Source: an uncultured Comamonas sp. (GTDB lineage: Bacteria; Pseudomonadota; Gammaproteobacteria; Burkholderiales; Burkholderiaceae_C). Taken from it: a stretch of DNA of 64,000 nucleotides. The DNA is taken from contig CABIIJ010000037.1 of assembly GCA_902175065.1 (NCBI GenBank), positions 1 to 64,000 on the forward strand, written 5' to 3'. Below the pieces are notes generated by a model, which searched no databases, was not told the origin of the DNA, and saw only the letters and a list, made by a program, of their open reading frames with translations. Made by a program: the position numbers and the translations under genes. Positions 34,595 to 48,089 of the stretch are shown one piece after another. How positions within the stretch are numbered: the first letter of the stretch is position 1; every line of letters begins with the position of its first letter.

Positions 34595-34634
34595 GTTGCA
34601 TTTTTATTCCCCGACACCTTGCCTTTTGCGCACC

Positions 34635-35162
34635 ATGCCTGCTGCCGAAACCGTTACCTATCGCGAAGTCGCCACCCTCTACGCCGACCACCACGGCTGG
34701 CTGCAAGGCTGGCTGCGCCGCCGGATCGGCCATGCCGGGGATGCGGCAGACCTGGCGCAGGACACCTTTGTGCGCCTGCTCGATGCCCCCGACGAGACGC
34801 CCGAGAAGCAGGCCAACTGGCAACTGCGCGAACCGCGTGCCTATCTCACGCTGATCGCCAAACGGCTCGTGGCCAATCTGTACCGGCGCCGCTCCCTGGA
34901 GCAGGCCTACCTGGAGGCCTTGGGCCAGATGTCCGAGCCCATGGCGCCATCGCCCGAGGAACGGGCCATCCTGCTGGAAACACTGCAGGAAGTGGACGCC
35001 GTCCTGGATGGACTCAAGCCCCTGGTGCGGGCGGCCTTTCTGCTGGCGCAGCTCGAAGGACTGGGCTATGCCGAGATCGCTGCGCGTCAGGCCTTGAGCG
35101 AACGCACCGTCAAGCGCTACATGGCGCAGGCCATGGCCCGCTGCATTGTGCTGCTGCCATGA
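34635..35162 (+). CDS. FecI-family ECF sigma factor 1
   Basis: A 175-aa iron-starvation sigma factor. Region 2 is DHHGWLQGWLRRRIGHAGDA with DLAQDTFVRLL; region 4 is the helix-turn-helix LGYAEIAARQALSERTVKRY. The start at 34635 (MPAAETVTYRE) is preferred; a TTG at 34596 is in frame but lies on the Fur box side. It overlaps the anti-sigma gene by four bases (ATGA), the usual fecI-fecR coupling. It is a close paralogue of the second sigma factor at 38838. Confidence 0.92.
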   Translation: MPAAETVTYREVATLYADHHGWLQGWLRRRIGHAGDAADLAQDTFVRLLDAPDETPEKQANWQLREPRAYLTLIAKRLVANLYRRRSLEQAYLEALGQMSEPMAPSPEERAILLETLQEVDAVLDGLKPLVRAAFLLAQLEGLGYAEIAARQALSERTVKRYMAQAMARCIVLLP

Positions 35163-36151
35163 GCACGGCGCATCGAACCTCCGCCGCAGCGGGCGGCACC
35201 GCCATCAGCGAAAAAGTGGCGCTGCAGGCTGCCGAATGGTTTTTCCTGCTGCAGGACGGTAAGGTCAGCGCCCAGGACCATCAGCGTTGCCAACGCTGGC
35301 GTGCGGCCCACCCTGCGCATGAAGCCGCCTGGCAGAAGGCGCAGCAGGTTGGGCAGCGGTTTGCGCAATTGCCGCCATCGCTGGCGCTGACCACGCTGAA
35401 CCGCCCGGCAGCGCAGCGCCGGGCTGCCGCCCAGGCCCTGGCCGTATTGCTGCTGGCGGCACCTGCCGGGTGGCTGGCCTGGCGCCAAGCGGGGGGCATC
35501 GACCTATGGGCCGACTACCGCAGTGCCACGGGAGAGCGCCGCGAGGTCGTTCTGGCCGATGGCAGCAGTGTCCAGCTGGATACGGCCAGCGCCATCGATG
35601 TCCATTTCGATAGCGAGTTGCGCTTGATCCGCCTGTGCCATGGCGCGATTCATGTGCAGACGGCGGCCGATCCGCAGCCCGCGTATCGCCCCTTCGTGGT
35701 GGCCACGGAGCAAGGCCGGCTGCGTGCGTTGGGCACGCGCTTTACCGTGCGCCAGGACGGCGGCTTCACCCGTGTGGCCGTATTCGAAGGTGCGGTGGAA
35801 ATGCGCCCGGCAGACAGCGCGGCCCCGGCACAGGTGCTCCAGGCGGGCCAGCAGGCGCAGATGGGCGAGCGCGAAATCAGCGCCATCGAAGCCGTGCCGC
35901 CCCATGCCGATGGCTGGACGCGCGGCGTGCTGCAGGTGCGCAATATGCGCCTGGATGATTTTGCGGCGGAGCTGGCACGCTACCGCCCCGGCATCGTGCG
36001 CTGCGATCCTGCCGTGGCCGGGCTGCGCATCTCGGGCGCATTCCAGTTGCGCGACACCACCCCCGTGCTGGACAGCCTGCCCCAGGTGCTGCCCGTCGCC
36101 GTGCGGTACCGCACGCGCTACTGGGCCACGCTGACCGCGCCGGGTGATTGA
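35159..36151 (+). CDS. FecR-family anti-sigma factor 1
   Basis: A 330-aa inner-membrane signal transducer. Cytoplasmic DUF4880 anti-sigma domain (residues about 20-65, AAEWFFLLQDGKVSAQDHQR), one transmembrane helix (about 92-107, ALAVLLLAAPAGWLAW), then the periplasmic FecR domain (REVVLADGSSVQLDTASAID, RLRALGTRFTVRQDG) and a C-terminal segment that would contact the receptor's STN domain. It passes the 'siderophore bound' signal from the receptor at 36255 to sigma factor 1. Confidence 0.92.
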   Translation: MSTAHRTSAAAGGTAISEKVALQAAEWFFLLQDGKVSAQDHQRCQRWRAAHPAHEAAWQKAQQVGQRFAQLPPSLALTTLNRPAAQRRAAAQALAVLLLAAPAGWLAWRQAGGIDLWADYRSATGERREVVLADGSSVQLDTASAIDVHFDSELRLIRLCHGAIHVQTAADPQPAYRPFVVATEQGRLRALGTRFTVRQDGGFTRVAVFEGAVEMRPADSAAPAQVLQAGQQAQMGEREISAIEAVPPHADGWTRGVLQVRNMRLDDFAAELARYRPGIVRCDPAVAGLRISGAFQLRDTTPVLDSLPQVLPVAVRYRTRYWATLTAPGD

Positions 36152-36183: not shown

Positions 36184-36254
36184 TCCCTTTTCCCGATCTG
36201 GCGTGTGAAGCCTTGGAAACCTTGATTCACACACCTTTCAGGAGCAATACATCC

Positions 36255-38753
36255 ATGGGCCGATATTCATCCCTGTCCGCAACATCCCTGCCTTCGCGCC
36301 GCGTGCTGGCGCTGGCGGTGCGCAGTGCGCTTCTGGTCATGGCCTGCTCGGCAGTGCCGAGCCAGGCGCAGACTGCCGCAGCCGCGCCTGCAGCGGCGCA
36401 GGCCGAAGCGGCCCGCAGCTACCAGATCGCGGCCGGCGCGTTGGATGAGGCGCTGGCCAGCTTTGCCGCCAGCGCCGGCGTCAGCATCACCATGCCGCCC
36501 GTGCTGGTGCAGGGCCGGACGACGCCCGGATTGCAGGGACGCCATACGGTGCGCGGCGGCTTTGCCCGCTTGTTGGAGGGATCGGGGCTGGAGGCGGTGG
36601 GCGGCAGTGGTGGCGTCTATACCCTGCGTGCTGCTGCCGTGCCAGCGGCCAGCCCGGTAGGGCAGGGGGTCGCCTTGGGCGAGGTGCGCGTCACCGCCGA
36701 GGCGGATCGTGGTGGCACCACCGAAGGCACGGGCAGTTACACCACGCGCAGTATGAGCACGGCCACGGGGCTCAACCTGTCGATGCGCGAAACGCCGCAG
36801 TCGGTCAGCGTGCTCTCGCGCCAGCAGATCGAGGATTTGGGGCTGACGACGCTGGATGACGCGGTGCAGAACGTTACCGGGCTAGTGATGCAGAAGGGCT
36901 ACTACGTCGGCGATTCCGGCAGCTTCTTCGCCCGTGGCTTTGCAGTCTCGAACATCCTGCTTGATGGCCTGCCTACCACCACTGGCGCCAACGGCACCTT
37001 CAATGCGGACAACGATTCGCTCGATATCTATGACCGCGTGGAAGTGGTGCGCGGGGCCACGGGCCTGACCACGGGTGCGGGCACGCCTTCTGCAGCGATC
37101 AATCTTGTGCGCAAGCGCCCCACCGCCGAGCGCCAGGGCGGCGTGACCCTGAGCGCGGGTAGCTGGAACAATTACCGTGCCGCCGTGGATGCCAGCGGCC
37201 CGTTGAACGAAGCAGGCACGCTGCGCGGTCGGGCGGTGGTGACGGTGCAGGACAGCAAGCACTTCTACGACGTGGCGCATGACCGCAGCCAACAGCTCTA
37301 CGGCATTCTGGAGGCCGACCTGGGCCCGGCCACCGTGGCAGCGCTGGGCTACCACTACCGCAATGTGGACAGCCAGGGCCGATTAGCTGCACTGCCGTCC
37401 CAGGCGGACGGCAGCTTCTATCCAGGGCTGGATCGTTCCACCAACCTTGGCAACGACTTCGACTACTGGAAACAGACCGATCAGACCGTCTTTGCCGATG
37501 TGACCCATCAGTTTGCCAATGGCTGGAAGGCCAAGGCCGCGGTGGCATGGAAAAGGCCAGAACAGGACATTCTTTTTTCCGGATTTGGACGCACGGCTGG
37601 CGTTTTGCGCCAGAACACGCAAGGCTACCGTCTCGACAACATGCAGGACAGCTATGACTTCTCGCTCAATGGCCCCTTCTCGCTGTTGGGCCGCACCCAT
37701 GAACTGCTCCTGGGTGCCAGCTATCGCAAACGTGCCAACAAGAACTGGGGTGGATGGGCTGCCTATAGCTGGACGGCCGGTGCACCTGCAGTCGATCCCT
37801 ATGCCTGGGATTCGTCCAGCGTGAGCCAGCCCGCGATCGACATGGATTTGTGGAAGCAGATCAACGCGGTGCGCCAGAAGAGCGTGTACGCGGCCACGCG
37901 GCTGCAGTTGGCCGACCCGCTGAAACTCATACTGGGCATGCGTGTGAACTGGTATGACCACGACCAACAATCCGGGGCAGGCAAAAACTACGCCGTGGAT
38001 CACGAACTGACCCCCTACGCGGGGCTAGTCTATGCGCTGAACGACAACCATTCGGCCTATGCCAGCTGGACGGAAATCTTTGAGCCGCAGAACAGCTACG
38101 ACAGGAGCGGAGACCTGCTTGCTCCCATCACCGGAACCAACTACGAGGCTGGAATCAAGGGCGAATACTTCGGCGGCCGTCTCAATGCCAGCCTGGCTAC
38201 CTTTCTCGTTCGGCAGGAGAACCGTGCTGTGGACGACCTGGACGGCCCCAACCCCTGCCCAGGCAGCACCAGTGGCTATTGCCGACGTGCCGCCGGCGAG
38301 GTGGAAAGCAAGGGCTTCGAACTGGAAGTGGGTGGTGCGCTGACACCTGACTGGCAGATCATGGCGGGGTACACCTACGTGAAGACCCGGTACACCAAGG
38401 ATTCTGTTGCCGCGAATGTCGGCAAGCCCTACGACACTAAATTGCCCAAGCATCAGCTCAAGCTATCCACCAGCTACCGCATGTCTGGGGATCTGCAGCG
38501 TTGGCGTGTGGGTGGTAGCGTGCAGGTGCAAAGTCGCATGTATACCGAGGGCACGGGTTACAGGATTGCGCAGGGCGGCTACGCGGTCGTCGGCCTGAAT
38601 GCGTCCTATGCCATCAACCCTCAGACAGAGCTGCGTATCAACGTCAACAATGTGTTCGACCGGCACTACTACCAGAACGTCGGTTGGCTGACAGGTGGCA
38701 ACGTTTTCGGCGCACCGCGCAACGTGCTGCTGACGGCGCATTACAGGTTCTGA
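36255..38753 (+). CDS. TonB-dependent siderophore receptor 1 with STN signalling domain
   Basis: An 832-aa outer-membrane transporter. Signal peptide residues about 1-40 (ending SQAQ), STN domain about 52-115 (YQIAAGALDEALASFAASAG), plug domain about 165-290 (MRETPQSVSVLSRQQIEDLG, DIYDRVEVVRGATGLTTGAG) and a 22-strand-type barrel ending in the aromatic residue of LTAHYRF. The STN domain contacts FecR 1. The ligand is unknown; the plug and TVR-x(n)-NLVRKRPT motif are of the ferric-pyoverdine/ferrioxamine/coprogen receptor family. I start at 36255, after AGGAGC, not at the longer frame from 36144. Confidence 0.92.
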   Translation: MGRYSSLSATSLPSRRVLALAVRSALLVMACSAVPSQAQTAAAAPAAAQAEAARSYQIAAGALDEALASFAASAGVSITMPPVLVQGRTTPGLQGRHTVRGGFARLLEGSGLEAVGGSGGVYTLRAAAVPAASPVGQGVALGEVRVTAEADRGGTTEGTGSYTTRSMSTATGLNLSMRETPQSVSVLSRQQIEDLGLTTLDDAVQNVTGLVMQKGYYVGDSGSFFARGFAVSNILLDGLPTTTGANGTFNADNDSLDIYDRVEVVRGATGLTTGAGTPSAAINLVRKRPTAERQGGVTLSAGSWNNYRAAVDASGPLNEAGTLRGRAVVTVQDSKHFYDVAHDRSQQLYGILEADLGPATVAALGYHYRNVDSQGRLAALPSQADGSFYPGLDRSTNLGNDFDYWKQTDQTVFADVTHQFANGWKAKAAVAWKRPEQDILFSGFGRTAGVLRQNTQGYRLDNMQDSYDFSLNGPFSLLGRTHELLLGASYRKRANKNWGGWAAYSWTAGAPAVDPYAWDSSSVSQPAIDMDLWKQINAVRQKSVYAATRLQLADPLKLILGMRVNWYDHDQQSGAGKNYAVDHELTPYAGLVYALNDNHSAYASWTEIFEPQNSYDRSGDLLAPITGTNYEAGIKGEYFGGRLNASLATFLVRQENRAVDDLDGPNPCPGSTSGYCRRAAGEVESKGFELEVGGALTPDWQIMAGYTYVKTRYTKDSVAANVGKPYDTKLPKHQLKLSTSYRMSGDLQRWRVGGSVQVQSRMYTEGTGYRIAQGGYAVVGLNASYAINPQTELRINVNNVFDRHYYQNVGWLTGGNVFGAPRNVLLTAHYRF

Positions 38754-38772: not shown

Positions 38773-38800
38773 TATAATTGAATAGGAATTGTTCTTGTTT
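38773..38800 (+). promoter_or_regulatory. Promoter and Fur-like site before sigma factor gene 2
   Basis: TATAAT at 38773-38778 is followed by TGAATAGGAATTGTTCTTG, a degenerate Fur-like inverted repeat (GAAT..ATTGTTC). The similar GATTCTTGTTTGC sequence precedes the third module (41955). Weaker than the Fur box of module 1. Confidence 0.5.
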
Positions 38801-38837
38801 GATTGCGGGCGCCCGGTTCCGCAAAATCGGGCCCTTC

Positions 38838-39347
38838 ATGCCTTCTTCTACTTGTCCCTCGTCCCGCGAAATCGCCACCCTCTACACCGAACACCACGGC
38901 TGGCTGCAGGGCTGGCTGCGCAGGAAGGTGGGCAATGCCTTCGATGCGGCCGACCTGGCGCAGGACACCTTCGTGCGCATTCTGGGGGCGCGTGATCCGC
39001 AGGCCATCGAAACGCCCCGTGCCTACCTCACCACGGTAGCGAAGGGCGTACTGGTCAACTGGTGCCGCCGTCAGGCCCTGGAGCGGGCCTACCTGGAGGC
39101 GCTGGCCCAACTGCCCGAACCCGAGGCTCCCTCGCCCGAGCAGCGGGCCGTGGTGCTTGAGACCCTGCACGAGATCGACGCCATGCTGGATGCCCTGCCG
39201 CCGCTGGCGCGGCGTGCCTTTTTGCTCTCGCAACTGGACGGGATGAAGTACGAGGACATCGCCCGGCAGCTCGGCGTGTCCCTCACCAGCGTCAAGCGCT
39301 ACATGGCCCAGGCCTTCCGCCAGTGCCTGGCCCTGATGGGCGAATGA
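38838..39347 (+). CDS. FecI-family ECF sigma factor 2
   Basis: A 169-aa sigma factor, paralogous to the one at 34635 (EHHGWLQGWLRRKVGNAFDA, DLAQDTFVRIL in region 2; YEDIARQLGVSLTSVKRYMA in region 4). The start at 38838 (MPSSTCPSSREIATLYT) is chosen over an in-frame TTG at 38778 that overlaps the promoter. The stop overlaps the next gene by four bases. Its receptor partner downstream is broken, so its present role is uncertain. Confidence 0.9.
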   Translation: MPSSTCPSSREIATLYTEHHGWLQGWLRRKVGNAFDAADLAQDTFVRILGARDPQAIETPRAYLTTVAKGVLVNWCRRQALERAYLEALAQLPEPEAPSPEQRAVVLETLHEIDAMLDALPPLARRAFLLSQLDGMKYEDIARQLGVSLTSVKRYMAQAFRQCLALMGE

Positions 39348-40315
39348 CCGTGCCCCCGCACCTGCTCGACGAAGCGGCCGACTGGCTGATGCGCCTGCAC
39401 AGCGGCGGCATGACCGCCGCCGAACACGCCGACCTTGAGCGCTGGCGCCAGACCAGCCCCGAGCACGCCCGCGCCTGGGGGCGGGCGGAACAGCTCATGG
39501 GCAAGCTCGGCGGCCTGCCCGCTGCCCTGGCCATGCCGACGCTGGGGCGGGCAGAACGTCGCACCCCGCCCGCCCGTCGCACTGCCATCGCCCGGCTGGC
39601 CGCGCTGCTGGCCGTCGGGCCTGCCGCCTGGCTGGGCTGGGAACTGGCGCAACACCAAGGCTGGACAGCCGATTTACGCACTGCCCAGGGCGAGCAGCGC
39701 AGCCTCACCCTGGCCGATGGCAGCCACCTGCTGCTGGATGCCGGTGCAGCTGTTGATGTCATGTTTGATAGCTATCAGCGCTTGTTGTACCTGCGTAAAG
39801 GGGCAATTTCTTTACAAACTGCACCAGACCCTGGCGGTACCCATCGGCCCTTGCTGGTCGAGACGGCGCTGGGGCGGCTGCGTGCGTTGGGCACGCGGTT
39901 TACCGTGCGGCTTGCCGATGACGCGCAGTCGCTGCTGCTGGCCGTGACCGAGGGCGCGGTGGAAGTCACTCCGCGCAGCGCCATGCTGCCTGTCGCCGTG
40001 GTGGCTGCCGGGCGGCAGATCGTTCTGACGGGGCAGGGCGTCGGGCCGCAACAGCCCGTGGCATCCCAGGCCCAGGCCTGGGTGCATGGCATGTTGATGG
40101 CCGACGCCATGCCGCTGGCCGAGGTTTGTGCCCAGTTGGCCCGCTACCGGCCCGGCGTGCTGCGCTGTGCGCCGGAGGTGGCGCAGCGCAAAGTCTCCGG
40201 TGCCTACCCGCTGGGAGATACCGACCAGGCGCTGTCCATGCTGGCCGAGACCTATGCGCTGCAGGTCAGCCGCCGCTGGGGCGGCTACTGGGTCATGGTC
40301 GAAGCCCGGCAGTAA
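39344..40315 (+). CDS. FecR-family anti-sigma factor 2
   Basis: A 323-aa protein with the DUF4880 domain (residues about 8-50, LDEAADWLMRLHSGGMTAAE), a transmembrane helix (about 81-100), the FecR periplasmic domain (RSLTLADGSHLLLDAGAAVD, RLRALGTRFTVRLAD) and a conserved C-terminus. It looks fully intact. Codons at 39767-39812 lie in an AT-rich stretch resembling the type B dispersed repeat but keep the family's residues. Its cognate receptor is a pseudogene. Confidence 0.9.
   Translation: MTVPPHLLDEAADWLMRLHSGGMTAAEHADLERWRQTSPEHARAWGRAEQLMGKLGGLPAALAMPTLGRAERRTPPARRTAIARLAALLAVGPAAWLGWELAQHQGWTADLRTAQGEQRSLTLADGSHLLLDAGAAVDVMFDSYQRLLYLRKGAISLQTAPDPGGTHRPLLVETALGRLRALGTRFTVRLADDAQSLLLAVTEGAVEVTPRSAMLPVAVVAAGRQIVLTGQGVGPQQPVASQAQAWVHGMLMADAMPLAEVCAQLARYRPGVLRCAPEVAQRKVSGAYPLGDTDQALSMLAETYALQVSRRWGGYWVMVEARQ
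39767..39812 (+). repeat. Type B repeat-like stretch inside fecR 2
   Basis: GATAGCTATCAGCGCTTGTT followed by GTAAAGGGGCAATTTC resembles the type B repeats (ATAGCT, AGCGCTT, then a GGC/GAGCC-ATTT block) at 30134 and 60211. It reads in frame as DSYQRLLYLRKGAIS, which aligns with DSELRLIRLCHGAIH of FecR 1, so it may be coincidental or gene-converted. Confidence 0.35.
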
Positions 40316-40409: not shown

Positions 40410-41745
40410 ATGCCTGCTTTACCGGCCTTGCCTTCTGTTTCTTCTTCTCGGCGCCCCGTTGCCCATGCGGCACGCCTTGCCTTGCTGGGCTGGGCGCTGG
40501 CAGGCGTGCCTGCCGCGTTTGCGGCTGATGCACTGCCTGTTCAGGCTGCCCCGTCCGTCCAGACCTATCAGATCGCCCCTGGCCCGCTGGGCCGGGCGCT
40601 GGCCGAGGTGGCATCCTCGGTAGGCATGGCGCTGGCGTTCGACCCGGCGCTTACGGACGGGCGGCAAAGCCCGGCCCTCGTGGGTAGCTACACGCCGCGC
40701 GAAGCCCTGCAGCGGCTGCTCGTCGGCAGCGGCCTGCAACTGGTGCAAAGCGCCGACGGGCGCTACCTGTTGCAAAAACTGCCCGCGCTGCCGCGTGAAA
40801 GCGCCACTTTGGGCGAAGTGCGCGTAACGGCCAGAGCCGTAAGCGGCGGCACCACCGAGGGCACGGGCAGCTACACCACCAGCAGCACCAGCACCGCCAC
40901 CCGGCTGCCGCTCACGCAGCGGGAAACACCGCAGTCCGTCACCGTCATCACCCGCCAGCAGATGGACGACCAGGGCCTGACCGGCGTCGCGGACGCGCTC
41001 CGGCAGGCGCCCGGCATCACGGTCAACCGCGACAACACCGAGGGCTACAGCTTCTATGCCCGGGGCTTCCAGGTCGAGAACTTCCAGTTCGATGGCGTGC
41101 CCAGCCTGTCCACGGCCGGCGGCAACGTGCGCGACAACTACAGCATCACCGACGCTGCCATCTACGACCGCGTGGAAATCCTCAAGGGCGCGACGGGCCT
41201 CGTGAATGGCGCGGGCTACCCGTCGGGCGTCGTCAACCTCGTGCGCAAGCGCCCCACGGCCGACTTCCAGGGCCACCCGCTGCTACACGGAGGGCGCCAA
41301 GGTGCGCAACCGCGGCATCGACCTGGAGGTCACGGGCTCGCCCGCACCAGGCTGGAACGTTGCCGCCAGCTTCACCTTCAGCGATCCGGAGTACGTGGCC
41401 GGCCCGAATGCGGGCAAGGACTACGATACCACTCTGCCGCGCAAGGTCTTCAAGCTGTCCACCGACTACCGCCTGCCCGGTGGACGGTGGCGCGTGGGAG
41501 GTGGCGTGCAGGCCCAGAGCGCCATGTTCCACAACGGCAACGGCTTTCACATCCGGCAGGGCGGCTACACGTTGCTGAACCTGCATGCGGGCTACGAGTT
41601 CAACAGCCACCTGCGGTTGCAGTTGAACGTGCGCAACGCGCTGGACAAGCATTACTACCAGACCATCCCGACCAACAACAACTATGGCGGCGTCTTCGTC
41701 GGCACGCCGCGCAGCTTTGCGCTGACCTTGCGCTACGACTATTGA
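40410..41745 (+). pseudogene. TonB-dependent siderophore receptor 2, internal deletion and frameshift
   Basis: The 5' part (40410 to about 41275) encodes a signal peptide, STN domain (YQIAPGPLGRALAEVASSVG) and plug (QRETPQSVTVITRQQMDDQG, YDRVEILKGATGLVNGAGYP), ending VRKRPTADFQG. The 3' part (about 41281-41745) continues in a different frame with GIDLEVTGSPAPGWNVAASF and the last barrel strands (LNVRNALDKHYYQTIPTNNN, ending ALTLRYDY). Compared with receptor 3, about 380 codons of the barrel are missing between them. The upstream frame runs out of register to 41873. A functional transporter cannot be made, though a secreted STN-plug fragment might be. Confidence 0.88.
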
Positions 41746-41945
41746 ACGGAGGTCTTCTTCGCTGCCCGCCTGGCCGTCGCCTCCGCTACCTTGCCGCGCA
41801 GGAAGAGCGGCAGCGATTGCCTGGCACTGCCATGTTGATCATTTTGCGCATTGCCTCCCGTTGCGCACATTGAAACTCCTCCCGGTGGCGAATGCGAACC
41901 AGAGTCCTGGCTGGATACCGTCCGAACCACCGGGTACATCCAGGG

Positions 41946-41976
41946 TATTGAAATGATTCTTGTTTGCAGAGTTATC
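41946..41976 (+). promoter_or_regulatory. Fur-like/promoter region before the fused sigma/anti-sigma gene
   Basis: ATTGAAATGATTCTTGTTTGC shares GATTCTTGTTTGC-like sequence with the region before sigma factor 2, and TATCAT at 41973 could be a -10 with TTGAAA at 41947 as -35 (20-base spacing, poor). Suggests iron control. The preceding 200 bases hold no gene; TGCGCA repeats at 41846 and 41863 are minor. Confidence 0.4.
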
Positions 41977-41986
41977 ATGCCGCCCC

Positions 41987-43339
41987 ATGGAACTATCCGC
42001 TGCCTTCACCCGCTCTCTGCTGTCGGGCTTCGACCGCGCCTATGCCGACCTGCTGCGCGTGGCGACGCGCAGCACCGGCTCCCGCGACGAGGCGGGCGAT
42101 CTCGTTCATGACACCTGGTTGCGGCTGGCCGAACATGCGCAGGGCGCTGCGGATGAACCGCCCGGCCAAGACGCCGTGAGCGCTGCACCGCGTGATGCCA
42201 CGGCCTACCTGGCCGCGATGGCGCAGAACCTAGCACTGGATGCGCACCGCCGCCGCCAGCGCCAGGGGCGCTACCTGGGCGCCGAGGCCGTGCGCGAGCA
42301 ACTCGCGCCCAGCCATGCCCCGGACGTGGCCGATACCGTCATGTACCGGCAGGCGCTGGCTGCGCTGGAGGCGGCCCTGGCCGCGTTGCCCGAGCGCTGC
42401 CGTGCAGTCTTCGTGGCGCACCGCGTGCAGGGAGAAAGGCAGTCCGATATCGCTGCCCGCCTGGGCGTGTCGCTGAACACCGTGGAGCGCGACCTGATGC
42501 AGGCCAATGACTGCATCGAGGATGCCTTGCACCGCTGGCGCGGCAACAGCCTGGCCAGCGTGCGGCGCACGGGCCGCCGCCGCAGCCTGGGCACCTTGCT
42601 GGGGCTGGCCGGAATGGGCCTGGGTGCCAGCGTGGGCTGGCAGCAGTGGCAGTGGTACCGCCACAGCCATGTGCAGTGGCAGGCGAGCTGGAGCAGCCCG
42701 CACGGGCGCCAGGTGCGCCATGCGCTGCCCGATGGCTCCAGCCTTTGGCTGGATGCCCTCAGCAGCGCCGAACTGCAGTATTTCGCCACGCGGCGTACGG
42801 TGCAGTTGGCGCAGGGGGCCGCCTTCTTCGCGGTGGCGCGGGACGAAGACCGGCCCTTCACCGTGCAGGCTGCCGGTCTGCGGGTGACGGTGCTGGGCAC
42901 GCGCTTTGGCGTGGAGATCACGCCCCGGCCCGATGGCGGGGCCGCGCAGGTCAGCGTGCAGGTGGAATCGGGCCGCGTGCGCGTGGAGCGCGATGCGGAC
43001 GGCGCGGGCGCAGCCTTTGCGCACGAGCTGGCGGCCGGGCAGGGCCTGCAATGGCGCAGCGGCCAGGAGGCGCCGCAACTGCTGGCGCAGGAGACGGCAG
43101 CCCCGTGGCGCCATGGCGAGCTGGTGTTTGCCGATGCCACGCTGGGCGAGGCGCTGCAGCGGCTGTCGCGCTACACGCCGTTCGTGCTGCGCAGCACGCC
43201 GGACGTGGCCGACCTGCCGCTGAGTGGCCGCGTGCGCATCGCCCAGGCCCAGGCCTGGATCCGGGCGCTGCCCCAGGCCCTGCCGGTGCAGGTTCGTCCG
43301 CAGGCGGATGGCGGTCTGCTGGTGGCCGCGATTCCTTGA
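41987..43339 (+). CDS. ECF sigma factor-FecR anti-sigma fusion protein (IutY-like)
   Basis: One continuous 450-aa frame joins two proteins that are normally separate. Residues 1-185 are a FecI-type sigma factor (region 2 DEAGDLVHDTWLRLAEH; region 4 ERQSDIAARLGVSLNTVERD). A basic linker (RRTGRRRS) leads to one transmembrane helix (about 201-218), then a periplasmic FecR domain (RHALPDGSSLWLDALSSAEL, LRVTVLGTRFGVEITP) and the C-terminal receptor-contact segment. The separate cytoplasmic anti-sigma domain (DUF4880) is missing. This matches the plan of Pseudomonas putida IutY, whose sigma part is freed by proteolysis. Partner receptor: 43536. Confidence 0.88.
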   Translation: MELSAAFTRSLLSGFDRAYADLLRVATRSTGSRDEAGDLVHDTWLRLAEHAQGAADEPPGQDAVSAAPRDATAYLAAMAQNLALDAHRRRQRQGRYLGAEAVREQLAPSHAPDVADTVMYRQALAALEAALAALPERCRAVFVAHRVQGERQSDIAARLGVSLNTVERDLMQANDCIEDALHRWRGNSLASVRRTGRRRSLGTLLGLAGMGLGASVGWQQWQWYRHSHVQWQASWSSPHGRQVRHALPDGSSLWLDALSSAELQYFATRRTVQLAQGAAFFAVARDEDRPFTVQAAGLRVTVLGTRFGVEITPRPDGGAAQVSVQVESGRVRVERDADGAGAAFAHELAAGQGLQWRSGQEAPQLLAQETAAPWRHGELVFADATLGEALQRLSRYTPFVLRSTPDVADLPLSGRVRIAQAQAWIRALPQALPVQVRPQADGGLLVAAIP

Positions 43340-43350
43340 AAAAGGAATTG

Positions 43351-43430
43351 ATAGCTTTTTTCCGCTCTGTTTAATTGAATTTCAAATAGAAAAATGTCTG
43401 AAATTAAATTAAACAGAGCGGGAAAAGCTC
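43351..43430 (+). repeat. Dispersed palindromic element, copy 4 (long hairpin)
   Basis: AGCTTTTTTCCGCTCTGTTT (from 43353) continues ...AATTGAATTTCA and faces TGAAATTAAATTAAACAGAG and CGGGAAAAGCT (to 43429). The arms are about 31 bases long with one indel and two mismatches around a 14-base AT-rich loop. The best palindrome of the family; located between the fused sigma gene and its receptor, where it could terminate, protect or insulate. Confidence 0.85.
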
Positions 43431-43535
43431 ATGTATTCATAGCTCGCAAACTTTTTTTCAGGGTTGGGCAGCAGGCAGACGTCCAGACAGTGATCCCGAT
43501 GGATTGACCTCATCACTGACGCAAAGGACGACCTC

Positions 43536-45923
43536 ATGCTTCCGCTCTTTTCCCGCTTCCGTCGCACGCCGCTGGCCCAGGCCGCGCTGTGCCTGGGTCT
43601 GGCCCTGCCGCTGCCGGCCGCCCTGGCCCAGGCAGGCGGCCCGGCACCGACGGCACGTTTCGACATTGCCGCACAGCCGCTGGCCGGTGCGCTGGATCAG
43701 TTTGCCCGCCAGGCCGGGCTGCAGTTGGTGTTCCAGCCCGGTCTGGCCGCGCAGCGCCAGGCACCCGCCGTGCATGGCGAGCTGCCGCTGCGCCAGGCGC
43801 TGGACGTGCTGCTGGAGGGCAGCGGCCTGTACGGCCAGATGCGGGATGGCACGCTGACCGTGCAGCAGTCCGCGTCTGGCGAGGCAATGTTGGGCGAGGT
43901 CAGGGTGGTGTCGAACCAGCTTGGTGAAATCACCGAGGGCACGGGCAGCTACACGCCCGGCACCATCGCCACTGCCACGCGGCTGGTGCTCACGCCGCGC
44001 GAGACGCCGCAGTCGATCAGCGTGGTCACGCGCCAGGAGATGGACGACTTCAATCTCACCTCGATCGACCGCGTGATGGAACACACGCCGGGCGTGAGTA
44101 TCGTCACCTATGACAGCGAGCGCACCCAGTACTACGCACGCGGCTTTGCGATCCAGAACTTCCAGTACGACGGCATTCCGATGCTGCGTGACTCGGCCTA
44201 TTCGGCCGGGCACACCCTGACCGACATGGCGATCTACGACCGTGTGGAGGTGCTCAAGGGCGCCACCGGCCTGTTGACGGGCAGCGGCGATCCGGGTGCG
44301 ACGATCAACCTGATCCGCAAGAAACCCACGCGAGAATTCCAGGGCAGCGCCTCGCTGGGCATCGGTTCGTGGCAGAACTACCGCACCCAACTGGATTTCA
44401 GCGGCGCTCTCAACGAAAGCGGCAGCGTGCGCGGCCGGGCCGTGGTTGCCTATCAGGACAGGCAATCGCACCTGGACCACTACCAGCGCAAGACCGGTGT
44501 GCTCTACGGCATTGTCGAAGCCGACCTGACGCCCGCCACGCTGCTGACCGTGGGCGCCGACTGGCAGGACAACGACCCCAAGGGCAGCACCTGGGGCGGC
44601 ATTCCGATCTACGACGCCAACGGCAACTTCAACACCATGCCACGCTCGTTCAACAACGGCGCACGCTGGAGCGGCTGGAACCAGTATTCGCGCACCGTGT
44701 TCGCCACGCTGGAACATGCCTTCGACAACGAATGGGTGGCCAAGCTGCAGTTGAACCACCAGATCAACGGCTACGATGCGAAGCTGTCGGCTGCCGCCAG
44801 CGGCAACCCCGATCCGGTCACCGGCGCCGGCGTGCGCCTCTGGGGCCCGACCTGGTACGACGGCAAGACCACCAGCGACGCCATGGACGTCTACGCCAGC
44901 GGGCCGTTCACGCTGCTCGGACGCAGGCACGAGCTCGTGCTGGGCGGCAGCATCTCCAAGCGGCAGTGGGAAAGCGATACCTTGCGGCAGCCTGGCTATG
45001 ACCAGAACGTGGCCGACTACTACGCCTGGAACGGCGATATTCCCTACCCGACTTGGCAGCATTCCGGCCATTACGGCGAGACCACCCGCGAAAGCGGCCT
45101 GTACGCCGCCGCCCGCCTGAACCTCCATGACAACCTGAAGTTGATCGCCGGCAGCCGCGTGCTCAACTACGAGGACGACGAGTTCAAGAAAACCGGTGTC
45201 GCCGTTCCCTACCTGGGCGTGGTGGTCGACCTGAACCCGCAGCTCTCGGCCTATGCTAGCTACACCACGATCTACAAGCCCCAGTCGGCGCAGACCGTCG
45301 AAGGCAGGACTCTCGACCCGCTGGAGGGCCAGAACAAGGAGATCGGCCTCAAGGGCGCCTTCCTGGGCGGCCGCCTGAACACCAGCATCGCCTACTTCCA
45401 GCTCGACCAGGACAACTACCCGGAATACACCAGCGAGCAGACCCCCACCGGCGGCACCGCTGCCCGCGCCATCCAGGGCGTCAAGACCAAGGGCTACGAG
45501 CTGGAACTGTCCGGGCAACTGACTCCGCAATGGCAGGTGCACGCCGGCTTCAGCCACAAGATCTCCCGCCAGCAGGGCGTGAAGGTGGCCACGCTGACAC
45601 CGGAGAACGTCTTCACGCTCTACGCCAGCTACAAACCCGCTGCGCTGCCGGGCCTGACGCTGGGCGGCGGCGCACGCTGGCAGGACAAGACCTGGGGCGC
45701 GGTCACCGACCTGGTGAACCCGGGTTCGGAAGTCGATGCCGTGTCCAAGGCCTACTGGCTGTTCGACGCCTCGGCCCGCTACCAGTTCAACAAGCACCTG
45801 TCGGCCACGCTGACGGTCAACAACCTGCTGGACAAGAAGTACTACACCATCTTCAACTGGTACAGCACCTACACCTGGGGCGAGCCGCGCAGTGTGAACG
45901 TCAGCCTGACCTACAAGTTCTGA
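43536..45923 (+). CDS. TonB-dependent siderophore receptor 3 with STN signalling domain
   Basis: A 795-aa outer-membrane receptor. Signal peptide about 1-33 (ending ALAQA), STN domain about 42-105 (FDIAAQPLAGALDQFARQAG), plug about 145-265 (TPRETPQSISVVTRQEMDDF, YDRVEVLKGATGLLTGSGDP), barrel ending VSLTYKF with a terminal Phe. It has the full signalling architecture and should activate the fused sigma/anti-sigma protein just upstream. Start at 43536 after AAGGA. Ligand unknown: a ferric hydroxamate or mixed siderophore of the FpvA/FiuA/FoxA group is likely. Confidence 0.92.
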   Translation: MLPLFSRFRRTPLAQAALCLGLALPLPAALAQAGGPAPTARFDIAAQPLAGALDQFARQAGLQLVFQPGLAAQRQAPAVHGELPLRQALDVLLEGSGLYGQMRDGTLTVQQSASGEAMLGEVRVVSNQLGEITEGTGSYTPGTIATATRLVLTPRETPQSISVVTRQEMDDFNLTSIDRVMEHTPGVSIVTYDSERTQYYARGFAIQNFQYDGIPMLRDSAYSAGHTLTDMAIYDRVEVLKGATGLLTGSGDPGATINLIRKKPTREFQGSASLGIGSWQNYRTQLDFSGALNESGSVRGRAVVAYQDRQSHLDHYQRKTGVLYGIVEADLTPATLLTVGADWQDNDPKGSTWGGIPIYDANGNFNTMPRSFNNGARWSGWNQYSRTVFATLEHAFDNEWVAKLQLNHQINGYDAKLSAAASGNPDPVTGAGVRLWGPTWYDGKTTSDAMDVYASGPFTLLGRRHELVLGGSISKRQWESDTLRQPGYDQNVADYYAWNGDIPYPTWQHSGHYGETTRESGLYAAARLNLHDNLKLIAGSRVLNYEDDEFKKTGVAVPYLGVVVDLNPQLSAYASYTTIYKPQSAQTVEGRTLDPLEGQNKEIGLKGAFLGGRLNTSIAYFQLDQDNYPEYTSEQTPTGGTAARAIQGVKTKGYELELSGQLTPQWQVHAGFSHKISRQQGVKVATLTPENVFTLYASYKPAALPGLTLGGGARWQDKTWGAVTDLVNPGSEVDAVSKAYWLFDASARYQFNKHLSATLTVNNLLDKKYYTIFNWYSTYTWGEPRSVNVSLTYKF

Positions 45924-46050: not shown

Positions 46051-46353
46051 ATGTCCAGTACCCCAGCCGCCCGCTCCGGGCCTTCCCTGTTGTCCCGCGT
46101 GCTGGCTGCCCTGCTGGGCGGCTATGCCTTCACCTGGGGCTTTATTGCCCTGGGTACGGCGGGCCTGTTCGCCCTGGGGCTGGAGTTTCACGATGCCGAG
46201 CACCTGAGCGCCATGCTCGGCGTGCTCTTGTATTTGGCAGTGTTCCTGTGGGCCATTGCCGCCGGCAGCTTGCGCCGGGTGTGGGCCGTGCTGGCGGGCG
46301 GCGGGGCGCTGATGGCCCTGGTCGCCTCGCTGGTGCAGTGGGGGCTGGTGTGA
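46051..46353 (+). CDS. DUF3649 family membrane protein (iron-uptake associated)
   Basis: A 100-aa protein with three hydrophobic helices (VLAALLGGYAFTWGFIALGT, AMLGVLLYLAVFLWAIAAGS, VWAVLAGGGALMALVASLVQ). It matches the DUF3649 type that accompanies PepSY and DUF3325 genes near siderophore receptors. No catalytic motif is visible; probably an accessory to the PepSY membrane protein downstream. Confidence 0.75.
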   Translation: MSSTPAARSGPSLLSRVLAALLGGYAFTWGFIALGTAGLFALGLEFHDAEHLSAMLGVLLYLAVFLWAIAAGSLRRVWAVLAGGGALMALVASLVQWGLV

Positions 46354-46397: not shown

Positions 46398-48089
46398 ATG
46401 TTCCCCTCCTTCCGCCACGCGATGACGTGGCTGCATACCTGGTTCGGCCTGACCCTGGGCTTCGTGCTCATGGCGGCGTTCTTCTTCGGGGCGCTATCGG
46501 TGTTCGACCGCGAGATCGACCGCTGGGCGATTCCCGAGTCGCGCTTTGCGCCGCAGCCCATGCCGTCGTTCGACCGGTTGCTGCGCCCGGTGTTCGAGGA
46601 CATGCAGCCGAGCCAGCAGAGCCTGGATTTCATGCGCGACAAGGTCAATGGCCCGCTGCCTGAGCGCTTCGACACCGTGCGCCGCTGGGGTGCCTACACC
46701 ACGCACCGCGACCCGGTGCTGGGCCTGTTCGCGGGCTACGAGGTGCCCAACGCCAAGGATCCGGAGCAGGGCGCCTGGGGCAACCGCACCATCGACCCGC
46801 GCAGCGGTGCCGCGCTGCCGGATGACCGGCTGAAGATCGGCAGCCAGTTCTTCTACCCGCTGCACTACAGCCTGAACCTGCATTGGGCAAACCTGGGCAC
46901 CTGGATCGTGGGCCTGGCCGGGCTGGTGATGCTGGCGGCGCTGGTCAGCGGCGTGGTCATGCACCGCAAGATCTTCCGCGAGTTCTTCACCTTCCGCCCG
47001 AAGAAGGCCACGCAGCGCAGCACGCTCGACCTGCACAACATGACCGGCGTGCTGGCGCTGCCGTTTCACTTCTTCTTCGCCTTTACCGGGGTGGTGATTT
47101 TTGCGGGTATCTACTTCCCGGTGTCGCATACCCAGCTGGAGCCGCTGCACGAACTGCACGAGCAGATGGAGGCGCAGGAAACCGGCCTGCCGCACGACCG
47201 TGCGGGCGTGGCCGCGCCGCTGGCCTCGGTGGACGCCATGATGGCCGAGGCGCAGCGCCGCTGGGCCGCCAGGGACATGGCGGGCGAGGTGGGCTTCCTC
47301 GCCGTGCAGCATGTGGGCGATGCCAACGGCTACGTCAGCATCTACCGCGCCGGCACCGACCGCATCGCGCTGGTGGGCGACGGCATCCACTTCAAGGCCA
47401 GCACCGGCGAGGTGCTGCGCGAAGACCCACCGCCCACCGTGGTGGACAGCGTCAACACCTTCCTGACCGGCCTGCACCTGCAGCACTTCCGCCACTGGCT
47501 GCTGCGCTGGCTGTACGTGCTGGGCGGGCTGATGGGCTGCGTGTGCATCGCCACGGGCTTTGTCTTCTTCGTCGAAAAGCGCAAGAAGCAGCACGCCAGG
47601 CAGGGCAGCCAGGGGGCGCGGGTGGTGGATGCGCTGGCGGTGACGACTGTCACCGGCATGGTGCTGGCCACGCTGGCCATCCTCGTCGCCAACCGGCTCT
47701 TGCCGGAAACCTTGCCTGCCAGCTGGCCGCCGGCCTTGCAGCATCGGGGCGACGTGGAGCAGTGGCTGTTCTGGGCCGCCTGGGCGCTGGCCATGGCGCA
47801 CGCCTTTTGGCGCAGCGCCCCGGTGGCCCAGGGGGGACGCAATCCGGCCTGGCGCGAGCAGTGCGGTGCCATTGCCGTGCTGGCGGTGCTGGCCGTGGGC
47901 CTGAACTGGCTGACCACGGGCGATCATTTGCTCAGGACGGTGTTCACCGCGCCCTATTCGCCCTATTGGCCGGTGGCGGGGGTCGACCTGGCCCTGTTGG
48001 CCACCGCAGCCGCTGCTGCATGGGCCGCGCGGCGGCTGGGGCAGCGCACCGCCGCCCCGGTGCGGAGCGTGGAGGTGGCCCATGCGTGA
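46398..48089 (+). CDS. PepSY-associated transmembrane protein (putative ferric-siderophore reductase)
   Basis: A 563-aa inner-membrane protein. It opens with WLHTWFGLTLGFVLMAAFFF, has the PepSY_TM helices with conserved histidines (FYPLHYSLNLHW, LDLHNMTGVLALPFHFFFAF) and several C-terminal helices. Proteins of this type near TonB receptors are thought to bind haem b and reduce ferric siderophores in the periplasm; that function is inferred from family and context. The stop overlaps the next start by eight bases. Confidence 0.82.
   Translation: MFPSFRHAMTWLHTWFGLTLGFVLMAAFFFGALSVFDREIDRWAIPESRFAPQPMPSFDRLLRPVFEDMQPSQQSLDFMRDKVNGPLPERFDTVRRWGAYTTHRDPVLGLFAGYEVPNAKDPEQGAWGNRTIDPRSGAALPDDRLKIGSQFFYPLHYSLNLHWANLGTWIVGLAGLVMLAALVSGVVMHRKIFREFFTFRPKKATQRSTLDLHNMTGVLALPFHFFFAFTGVVIFAGIYFPVSHTQLEPLHELHEQMEAQETGLPHDRAGVAAPLASVDAMMAEAQRRWAARDMAGEVGFLAVQHVGDANGYVSIYRAGTDRIALVGDGIHFKASTGEVLREDPPPTVVDSVNTFLTGLHLQHFRHWLLRWLYVLGGLMGCVCIATGFVFFVEKRKKQHARQGSQGARVVDALAVTTVTGMVLATLAILVANRLLPETLPASWPPALQHRGDVEQWLFWAAWALAMAHAFWRSAPVAQGGRNPAWREQCGAIAVLAVLAVGLNWLTTGDHLLRTVFTAPYSPYWPVAGVDLALLATAAAAAWAARRLGQRTAAPVRSVEVAHA

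Follow-up and report, generated by a model that had tools for sequence, protein, structure and literature searches.

Is an ECF sigma factor that is made in one chain with a membrane-anchored FecR domain in Comamonas the counterpart of IutY from Pseudomonas putida, or is it a switch of separate origin with parts of its own? The question is raised by a locus in a 64,000-nucleotide stretch of DNA from an uncultured Comamonas sp. (hereafter the window, meaning the whole stretch that was analysed). In the available parts of two publications, IutY is called unique (PMC5411451) and is the only characterised hybrid (PMC8999054). We found no literature description of the Comamonas-type hybrid family; the supplement of the ECF reclassification may list such fusions. 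The hybrid gene and its parts, with the evidence for each, are as follows.

41987..43339, + strand: hybrid of ECF sigma factor and FecR in one protein of 450 aa (open frame, Pfam, relatives)
42035..42142, + strand: Sigma70_r2 match, residues 17-52 (Pfam)
42359..42505, + strand: Sigma70_r4_2 match, residues 125-173 (Pfam)
42575..42583, + strand: arginines 197-199 directly before the helix, Tat-like (alignment)
42593..42667, + strand: membrane helix, residues 203-227 (AlphaFold2, hydropathy)
42695..42982, + strand: FecR domain PF04773, residues 237-332 (Pfam; Foldseek match to PupR)
42896..42901, + strand: Gly304-Thr305 pair, the self-cleavage position in FecR-type proteins such as FoxR (alignment; mechanism from the available parts of PMC9249621 and PMC11637429)

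Translation gives 450 codons and a stop without interruption at 41987-43339, as the preliminary description had stated. The ATG at 41987 is also the start in related loci, and a TTG 27 bases upstream is a possible alternative. The Sigma70_r2, Sigma70_r4_2 and FecR matches each exceed the Pfam cut-off, the FecR match with 57.3 bits against a gathering score of 24; the Sigma70_r2 match is short (residues 17-52) and low-scoring (32.4 bits). Among NCBIfam models, only the superfamily TIGR02937 is over the cut-off, and the best other model, PRK07037, is below it. The AlphaFold2 model (mean pLDDT 86.0, pTM 0.56) consists of sigma helices, a linker at residues 191-206 with pLDDT below 50, the helix at 203-227, and a periplasmic part that is mostly beta. 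Foldseek relates this periplasmic part to the periplasmic domain of PupR (6ovk, E 1.0e-16) and also to BDI_1681 structures, and the N-terminal part to ECF sigma factors. The linker between the sigma part and the helix is basic, and hydropathy likewise indicates the helix, with a helix-like stretch in 63 of 63 Comamonas-type hybrids. The order described earlier, from sigma regions 2 and 4 through a basic linker and one membrane helix to a periplasmic FecR domain, is one on which Pfam, hydropathy, AlphaFold2 and Foldseek agree. The absence of a DUF4880 domain was also confirmed, as Pfam gives no match to it in the window hybrid; there is none in 12 aligned hybrids, and it is not among the best 25 of 52 Pfam families listed for 40 hybrids. 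Both sigma regions are matched by Pfam in 40 of 40 hybrids, R197 and R198 are invariant among 40 aligned hybrids, and so is the Gly304-Thr305 pair (40/40). Compared with the related locus L037, the two halves are under purifying selection (sigma half: dS 0.39, dN 0.065, dN/dS ~0.17; FecR half: dS 0.30, dN 0.063). The Comamonas hybrid is an ECF sigma factor and a membrane FecR domain in one chain, an architecture of the IutY type, and the locus is real, conserved and functional-looking.

Relatives were gathered in one genome scan with two short patterns, which returned at least 56 hybrid loci (L037-L092). The fusion is intact in one open frame in 53 of these 56 among the matches listed, and the remaining matches listed in the same scan (L093-L115) are split pairs. 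The hosts of the hybrids are mostly Comamonadaceae and also include Azoarcus, Thauera, Pseudothauera, Paucibacter and Methylibium; one locus, L074, is labelled Pantoea, and the label may be wrong. Since the genome searches scored no more than the first 5 to 27 candidates in each genome, their counts are lower bounds: full-length hybrids (at least 287 bits) occur in at least 16 of 37 same-genus genomes in a protein search of 61 genomes, and strong profile matches in at least 21 of 250 sampled genomes of the bacterial family and at least 4 of 300 sampled genomes of the order, the latter all Comamonas-type hybrids. In 24 further genomes of the order within the 61-genome search, no full-length hybrid was found among the candidates scored. 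A tethered sigma factor had been presented as a rare design, which does not fit its occurrence in at least 16 of 37 genomes of one genus and at least 53 loci of one scan. Three hybrid copies have a broken reading frame, in a Variovorax MAG (L049), in Delftia tsuruhatensis (L075) and in an Acidovorax record (L083), and the hybrid of L082 is without roughly its first 43 residues. L075 and L083 were considered as unfused intermediates and rejected, because their frame breaks fall inside or across the sigma part and they look like broken copies.

The hybrid lies among genes of similar signalling systems.

34596..35162, + strand: separate FecI-type sigma factor, module 1 (Pfam, NCBIfam)
35159..36151, + strand: separate DUF4880-FecR anti-sigma protein, module 1 (Pfam)
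36228..38753, + strand: TonB-dependent receptor with STN, module 1, start uncertain
38778..39347, + strand: separate FecI-type sigma factor, module 2 (Pfam, NCBIfam)
39344..40315, + strand: separate DUF4880-FecR anti-sigma protein, module 2 (Pfam)
40410..41745, + strand: decayed TonB receptor, module 2, its N-terminal half and a C-terminal fragment lying in different frames
43536..45923, + strand: TonB-dependent siderophore receptor carrying an STN signalling domain, the likely partner of the hybrid (Pfam)
46051..46353, + strand: small open reading frame, 100 aa, without a Pfam match at E <= 0.001
46398..48089, + strand: PepSY_TM membrane protein, downstream of the receptor

The two neighbouring modules indeed keep the sigma and DUF4880-FecR genes separate and overlapping, by ATGA at 35159-35162 (module 1) and 39344-39347 (module 2), and split and fused designs coexist within 8.8 kb. 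The receptor of module 2 has decayed, so its split pair has no intact receptor beside it; this receptor is about 1.1 kb shorter than the one in the same position in L037. Only 75-177 bases separate the end of a preceding split module, receptor included, from the hybrid frame in L037, L038, L039, L041 and L042, and no split module was seen before the hybrid in L040, the sixth of the six nearest loci. With a split module adjoining the hybrid in five of six, the side-by-side arrangement is kept. The direct comparison with split paralogues that had been expected from it is weaker than hoped, since the sigma factors of the two neighbouring modules are of a different FecI-type subfamily (NCBIfam PRK12528, 198.9 and 224.0 bits versus 39.7 for the hybrid) and fall in another clade of the tree described below (100/100). 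Both neighbouring split modules were also rejected as a hybrid, or a recent split ancestor of the hybrid, inside the window, since they fall in that other clade.

On the other side of the hybrid, 55 of 56 hybrid loci among the matches listed have a TonB receptor gene downstream in the same orientation. The exception, L089 (Vandammella animalimorsus), has a hybrid with no receptor match in the 6 kb downstream. The receptor next to the hybrid in the window, the one in which the STN domain was checked by Pfam, does have this domain. Its best models are FauA and FhuE, both below the cut-off.

The origin of the fusion was addressed with a tree of 50 rows, including 15 Comamonas-type hybrids, and AU tests of constrained clades. 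The 15 hybrids form one clade (99/97), and its sister is formed by the split pairs L004 and L097 (97/95), the former elsewhere in the window's genome (contig C76) and the latter in an Azoarcus MAG. These are the nearest non-fused relatives found; they have separate sigma and DUF4880-FecR genes and stand on long branches apart from the Comamonas-type hybrids. L004, a 451-aa open frame, had been a candidate second hybrid and proved to be a split pair. A 374-aa protein in a Pseudomonas-group genome (L151:3635-4756) matches IutY in length and carries each of the five residues named for IutY in the available part of PMC5411451 (D210, R231, F251, V253, W301), and on this length and these residues we take it as IutY; an RhtA-like receptor lies downstream. 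At least 13 full-length IutY orthologues (L151 and 12 others) occur in 298 genomes, and IutY with its split kin makes up a third group in the tree (100/100). A third hybrid of 421 aa, in the Pseudomonas-group genome G070 (L152:4064-5329, the same locus as L130), has the split pairs L098 and L107 as its sister group (100/99). A clade of Comamonas-type hybrids and IutY is rejected (p-AU 1e-87), as are clades of the Comamonas type and the third hybrid (1e-80), of IutY and the third hybrid (4e-9), and of all three hybrid groups (0.0025). The kinship with IutY suggested at the outset is thus not upheld, and the hybrid groups with neither IutY nor the neighbouring sigma factors. Judged by this tree and these tests, the Comamonas-type hybrid seems to have arisen independently of IutY.

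The split kin of IutY in other species bear DUF4880 and reach up to 83% identity in the sigma factor and 70% in FecR. In the set L153-L182, split pairs are nested among the IutY hybrids in the best tree, but monophyly of the IutY hybrids is not rejected either (AU p 0.30), so either fusion or fission may have occurred there. DUF4880 was found in 8 of 8 nearest split FecR proteins scanned (E <0.01), with L098 and L107 below the cut-off. Because the nearest split FecR proteins have this domain, three fusions, each with loss of the tail, make a simpler history than a single fusion with later splits in which the tail was regained; the tree alone is compatible with gain and with loss.

IutY and the Comamonas hybrid are alike in joining a cytoplasmic ECF sigma factor, a single helix and a periplasmic FecR domain in one chain without DUF4880, and in both cases a receptor gene adjoins. 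They differ in length (374 versus 450 aa) and have ~27% identity over it. The Gly-Thr pair is present in 69 of 69 Comamonas-type hybrids, in the third hybrid (1/1) and in 76 of 81 other split FecR proteins, whereas it occurs in neither the IutY hybrids (0/13) nor the split kin of IutY (0/17). Two arginines within 15 residues before the helix core are found in all 63 Comamonas-type hybrids, compared with 0/13 for IutY and 0/1 for the third hybrid. Twin arginines also precede the helix in 83 of 100 split FecR proteins, and a stricter RRx-hydrophobic motif occurs in 53 of 63 Comamonas-type hybrids and 65 of 100 split FecR proteins. FecR is known as a Tat substrate, for which a twin-arginine motif before a modest hydrophobic helix is expected; with RR in 63 of 63 and TatC in the window's genome, the Comamonas-type hybrids may be exported in this way. 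The receptor beside IutY is RhtA-like, while the Comamonas receptor is best matched by FauA and FhuE at scores under the cut-offs. The third hybrid has the same architecture as the Comamonas type, a receptor downstream, a PepSY gene nearby and the Gly-Thr pair, but is sister to L098/L107 and without RR before the helix. FecI/FecR, FoxI/FoxR and PupI/PupR share with the hybrid the periplasmic FecR fold, the Gly-Thr pair and an STN receptor; they differ in being two proteins, with a sigma-binding DUF4880 tail on FecR.

Prc sets the families further apart. Prc was detected by PF11818, the C-terminal family of Prc/Tsp, for which the E. coli control was positive. It was found in none of 25 same-genus genomes (the window's own and 24 others), in 1 of 41 relatives overall and in none of 46 genomes of the Comamonas-type hybrid family searched, versus 13 of 13 IutY genomes and 14 of 14 Pseudomonas hybrid genomes. 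The window's genome does encode RseP (over the cut-off), TatC and one CtpA-type C-terminal-processing protease, which is 486 aa long and contains S41 and PDZ domains. Of the activation by Prc and RseP that had been assumed from IutY, the RseP part is consistent with the gene content, but the Prc part is not. While a single studied protein has already shown this architecture, the Comamonas type stands apart by its separate origin and by three differing parts (Gly-Thr, RR and the non-detection of Prc).

According to the available portions of PMC5411451, IutY needs Prc and RseP, truncation of its periplasmic part renders it constitutively active in an RseP-dependent manner, and RseP cleaves FoxR and FiuR without need for Prc. 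Self-cleavage of FoxR takes place between Gly and Thr in the parts of PMC9249621 and PMC11637429 available to us. The latter also has the receptor signalling domain shielding FoxR and IutY from proteolysis, and assigns CtpA in P. aeruginosa to the receptor and not to FoxR, so that CtpA as site-1 protease is not to be taken for granted.

Three elements in the non-coding DNA on either side of the hybrid gene bear on its control.

41944..41962, + strand: Fur-box-like site upstream of the hybrid gene, with one base fewer than its counterpart in the related loci L037-L042
43362..43421, + strand: terminator-like hairpin between the hybrid and receptor genes, with 15-bp perfect arms at 43362-43376 and 43407-43421
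43457..43482, + strand: promoter-like element TTCAGGG-N16-CGT upstream of the receptor gene, which the sigma part may recognise

The first site was scored against the Fur consensus. It reaches 14-15/19 in L037-L042 versus 11/19 in the window, where it is damaged, and of 60 upstream stretches 28 score at least 13/19. This scoring is a hint, since shuffles (mean 9.9, maximum 13) were made from just one shorter piece of the window. The hairpin is very stable (z -8.7) and has no second copy in the 64-kb window at up to 3 mismatches. As it separates the hybrid from the receptor, the receptor should have its own promoter. TTCAGG[GA]-N14-17-CGT occurs in 23 of 57 hybrid-receptor intergenic stretches, against a mean of 0.15 and a maximum of 1 in 100 shuffles, a count from the same stretches that yielded the motif, some of them near-copies, with 34 of the 57 lacking it. 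The hit at 43457 is the only one in the window, and with 0.78 expected by chance in 64 kb, the weight of the motif rests on its recurrence at the same place.

We hypothesize that the hybrid serves a TonB-dependent receptor, probably one for siderophores, as a cell-surface-signalling switch in a single chain, and consider the mechanism as a whole likely. Architecture, conservation, separate origin, receptor linkage, the genes for RseP, TatC and a CtpA-type protease, and the non-detection of Prc are results of this analysis; what we infer is the topology, the self-cleavage step, the order in which proteases act, use of the promoter, control by Fur and the signal. The sigma part (residues 1-185) would be inactive because helix 203-227 anchors it to the inner membrane, with the FecR part in the periplasm. 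There the protein would probably cut itself at Gly304-Thr305, its halves remaining together, and the signalling domain of the adjoining receptor would shield the C-terminal half. Once the receptor is loaded, a periplasmic protease distinct from Prc, with the CtpA-type S41 protease as one candidate, would remove this half, and RseP would then cut within the helix. The freed sigma part may turn on the receptor gene from the TTCAGG-N15/16-CGT promoter, and the hybrid gene is probably under Fur. Since Gly-Thr is kept in hosts without Prc, a FoxR-like first step is expected in an IutY-like one-chain protein. Against the proposal, the lack of Prc characterises the whole lineage, split systems included, and the twin arginines, common in split FecR proteins as well, could be plain positive-inside charges. 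The intergenic stretches that lack the promoter motif, the damaged Fur-like site of the window and the missing receptor match at L089 also count against it.

A broader reading is offered more tentatively, as one that we regard as possible and somewhat doubtful. At least three sigma-FecR fusions would have occurred, each dropping DUF4880, so that tethering alone could replace the tail; the Comamonas type would be the oldest and most widespread, and its built-in Gly-Thr first cut and Tat export of a folded periplasmic part from an internal signal would make it a Prc-free switch. A wide, separately evolved hybrid family in another order than IutY, together with a third case, raises the question of whether the tail is needed once the sigma factor is tethered, given repeated fusion and repeated loss of DUF4880. 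A family that bears Gly-Thr and lacks Prc sets two routes to the first cut apart. What fusion costs and what it gains can be tested on sister pairs of fused and split systems (IutY with split kin of up to 83% identity; L152 with L098/L107).

Several other explanations have to be weighed against the proposed switch. The hybrid could be a plain IutY orthologue with an aerobactin-type receptor, activated by Prc and then RseP as in P. putida, which would agree with the shared architecture, the ~27% identity, the adjoining receptor and the presence of RseP. We consider this very unlikely, because the test rejecting a common clade with IutY (p-AU 1e-87) is joined by the Pseudomonas split pairs that are IutY's nearest kin (<=83% sigma, <=70% FecR identity), by the lack of PF11818 in the hybrid-family genomes searched, by the differing Gly-Thr and RR, and by a receptor closest to FauA/FhuE (below cut-offs) and not RhtA. 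The preliminary description had cautioned that a stop codon might have been lost between the sigma and FecR parts; such a loss could be an artefact of assembly or a recent mutation of the strain. An intact fusion at 53 of 56 loci, spread over many species (among the matches listed), the absence of a DUF4880 remnant and purifying selection on both halves speak so strongly against such an event that we give it almost no credence, even beside split neighbouring modules and a decayed receptor.

It is also conceivable, if unlikely, that the sigma factor is released without regulated proteolysis or is active at the membrane, the tether being incidental and control residing in the linker or the receptor. 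Without a separate anti-sigma domain nothing visible occludes the sigma surfaces, the linker is predicted to be flexible in the AlphaFold2 model, and the cytosolic sigma domain of IutY is itself tightly membrane-associated in the available text of PMC5411451. The same text, however, has all membrane-anchored IutY variants dependent on RseP, and the helix, FecR fold and Gly-Thr pair are conserved in Comamonas-type hybrids, which favours the proteolytic switch. A degenerate regulator, with a dead sigma part in a protein that merely buffers the receptor, appears quite improbable: the short region 2 match (17-52; 32.4 bits) and the damaged Fur-like site of the window would be in keeping with decay, but region 2 and region 4 matches are found in 40 of 40 hybrids, the sigma half has a dN/dS of ~0.17 relative to L037, and the promoter-like site before the receptor is kept.
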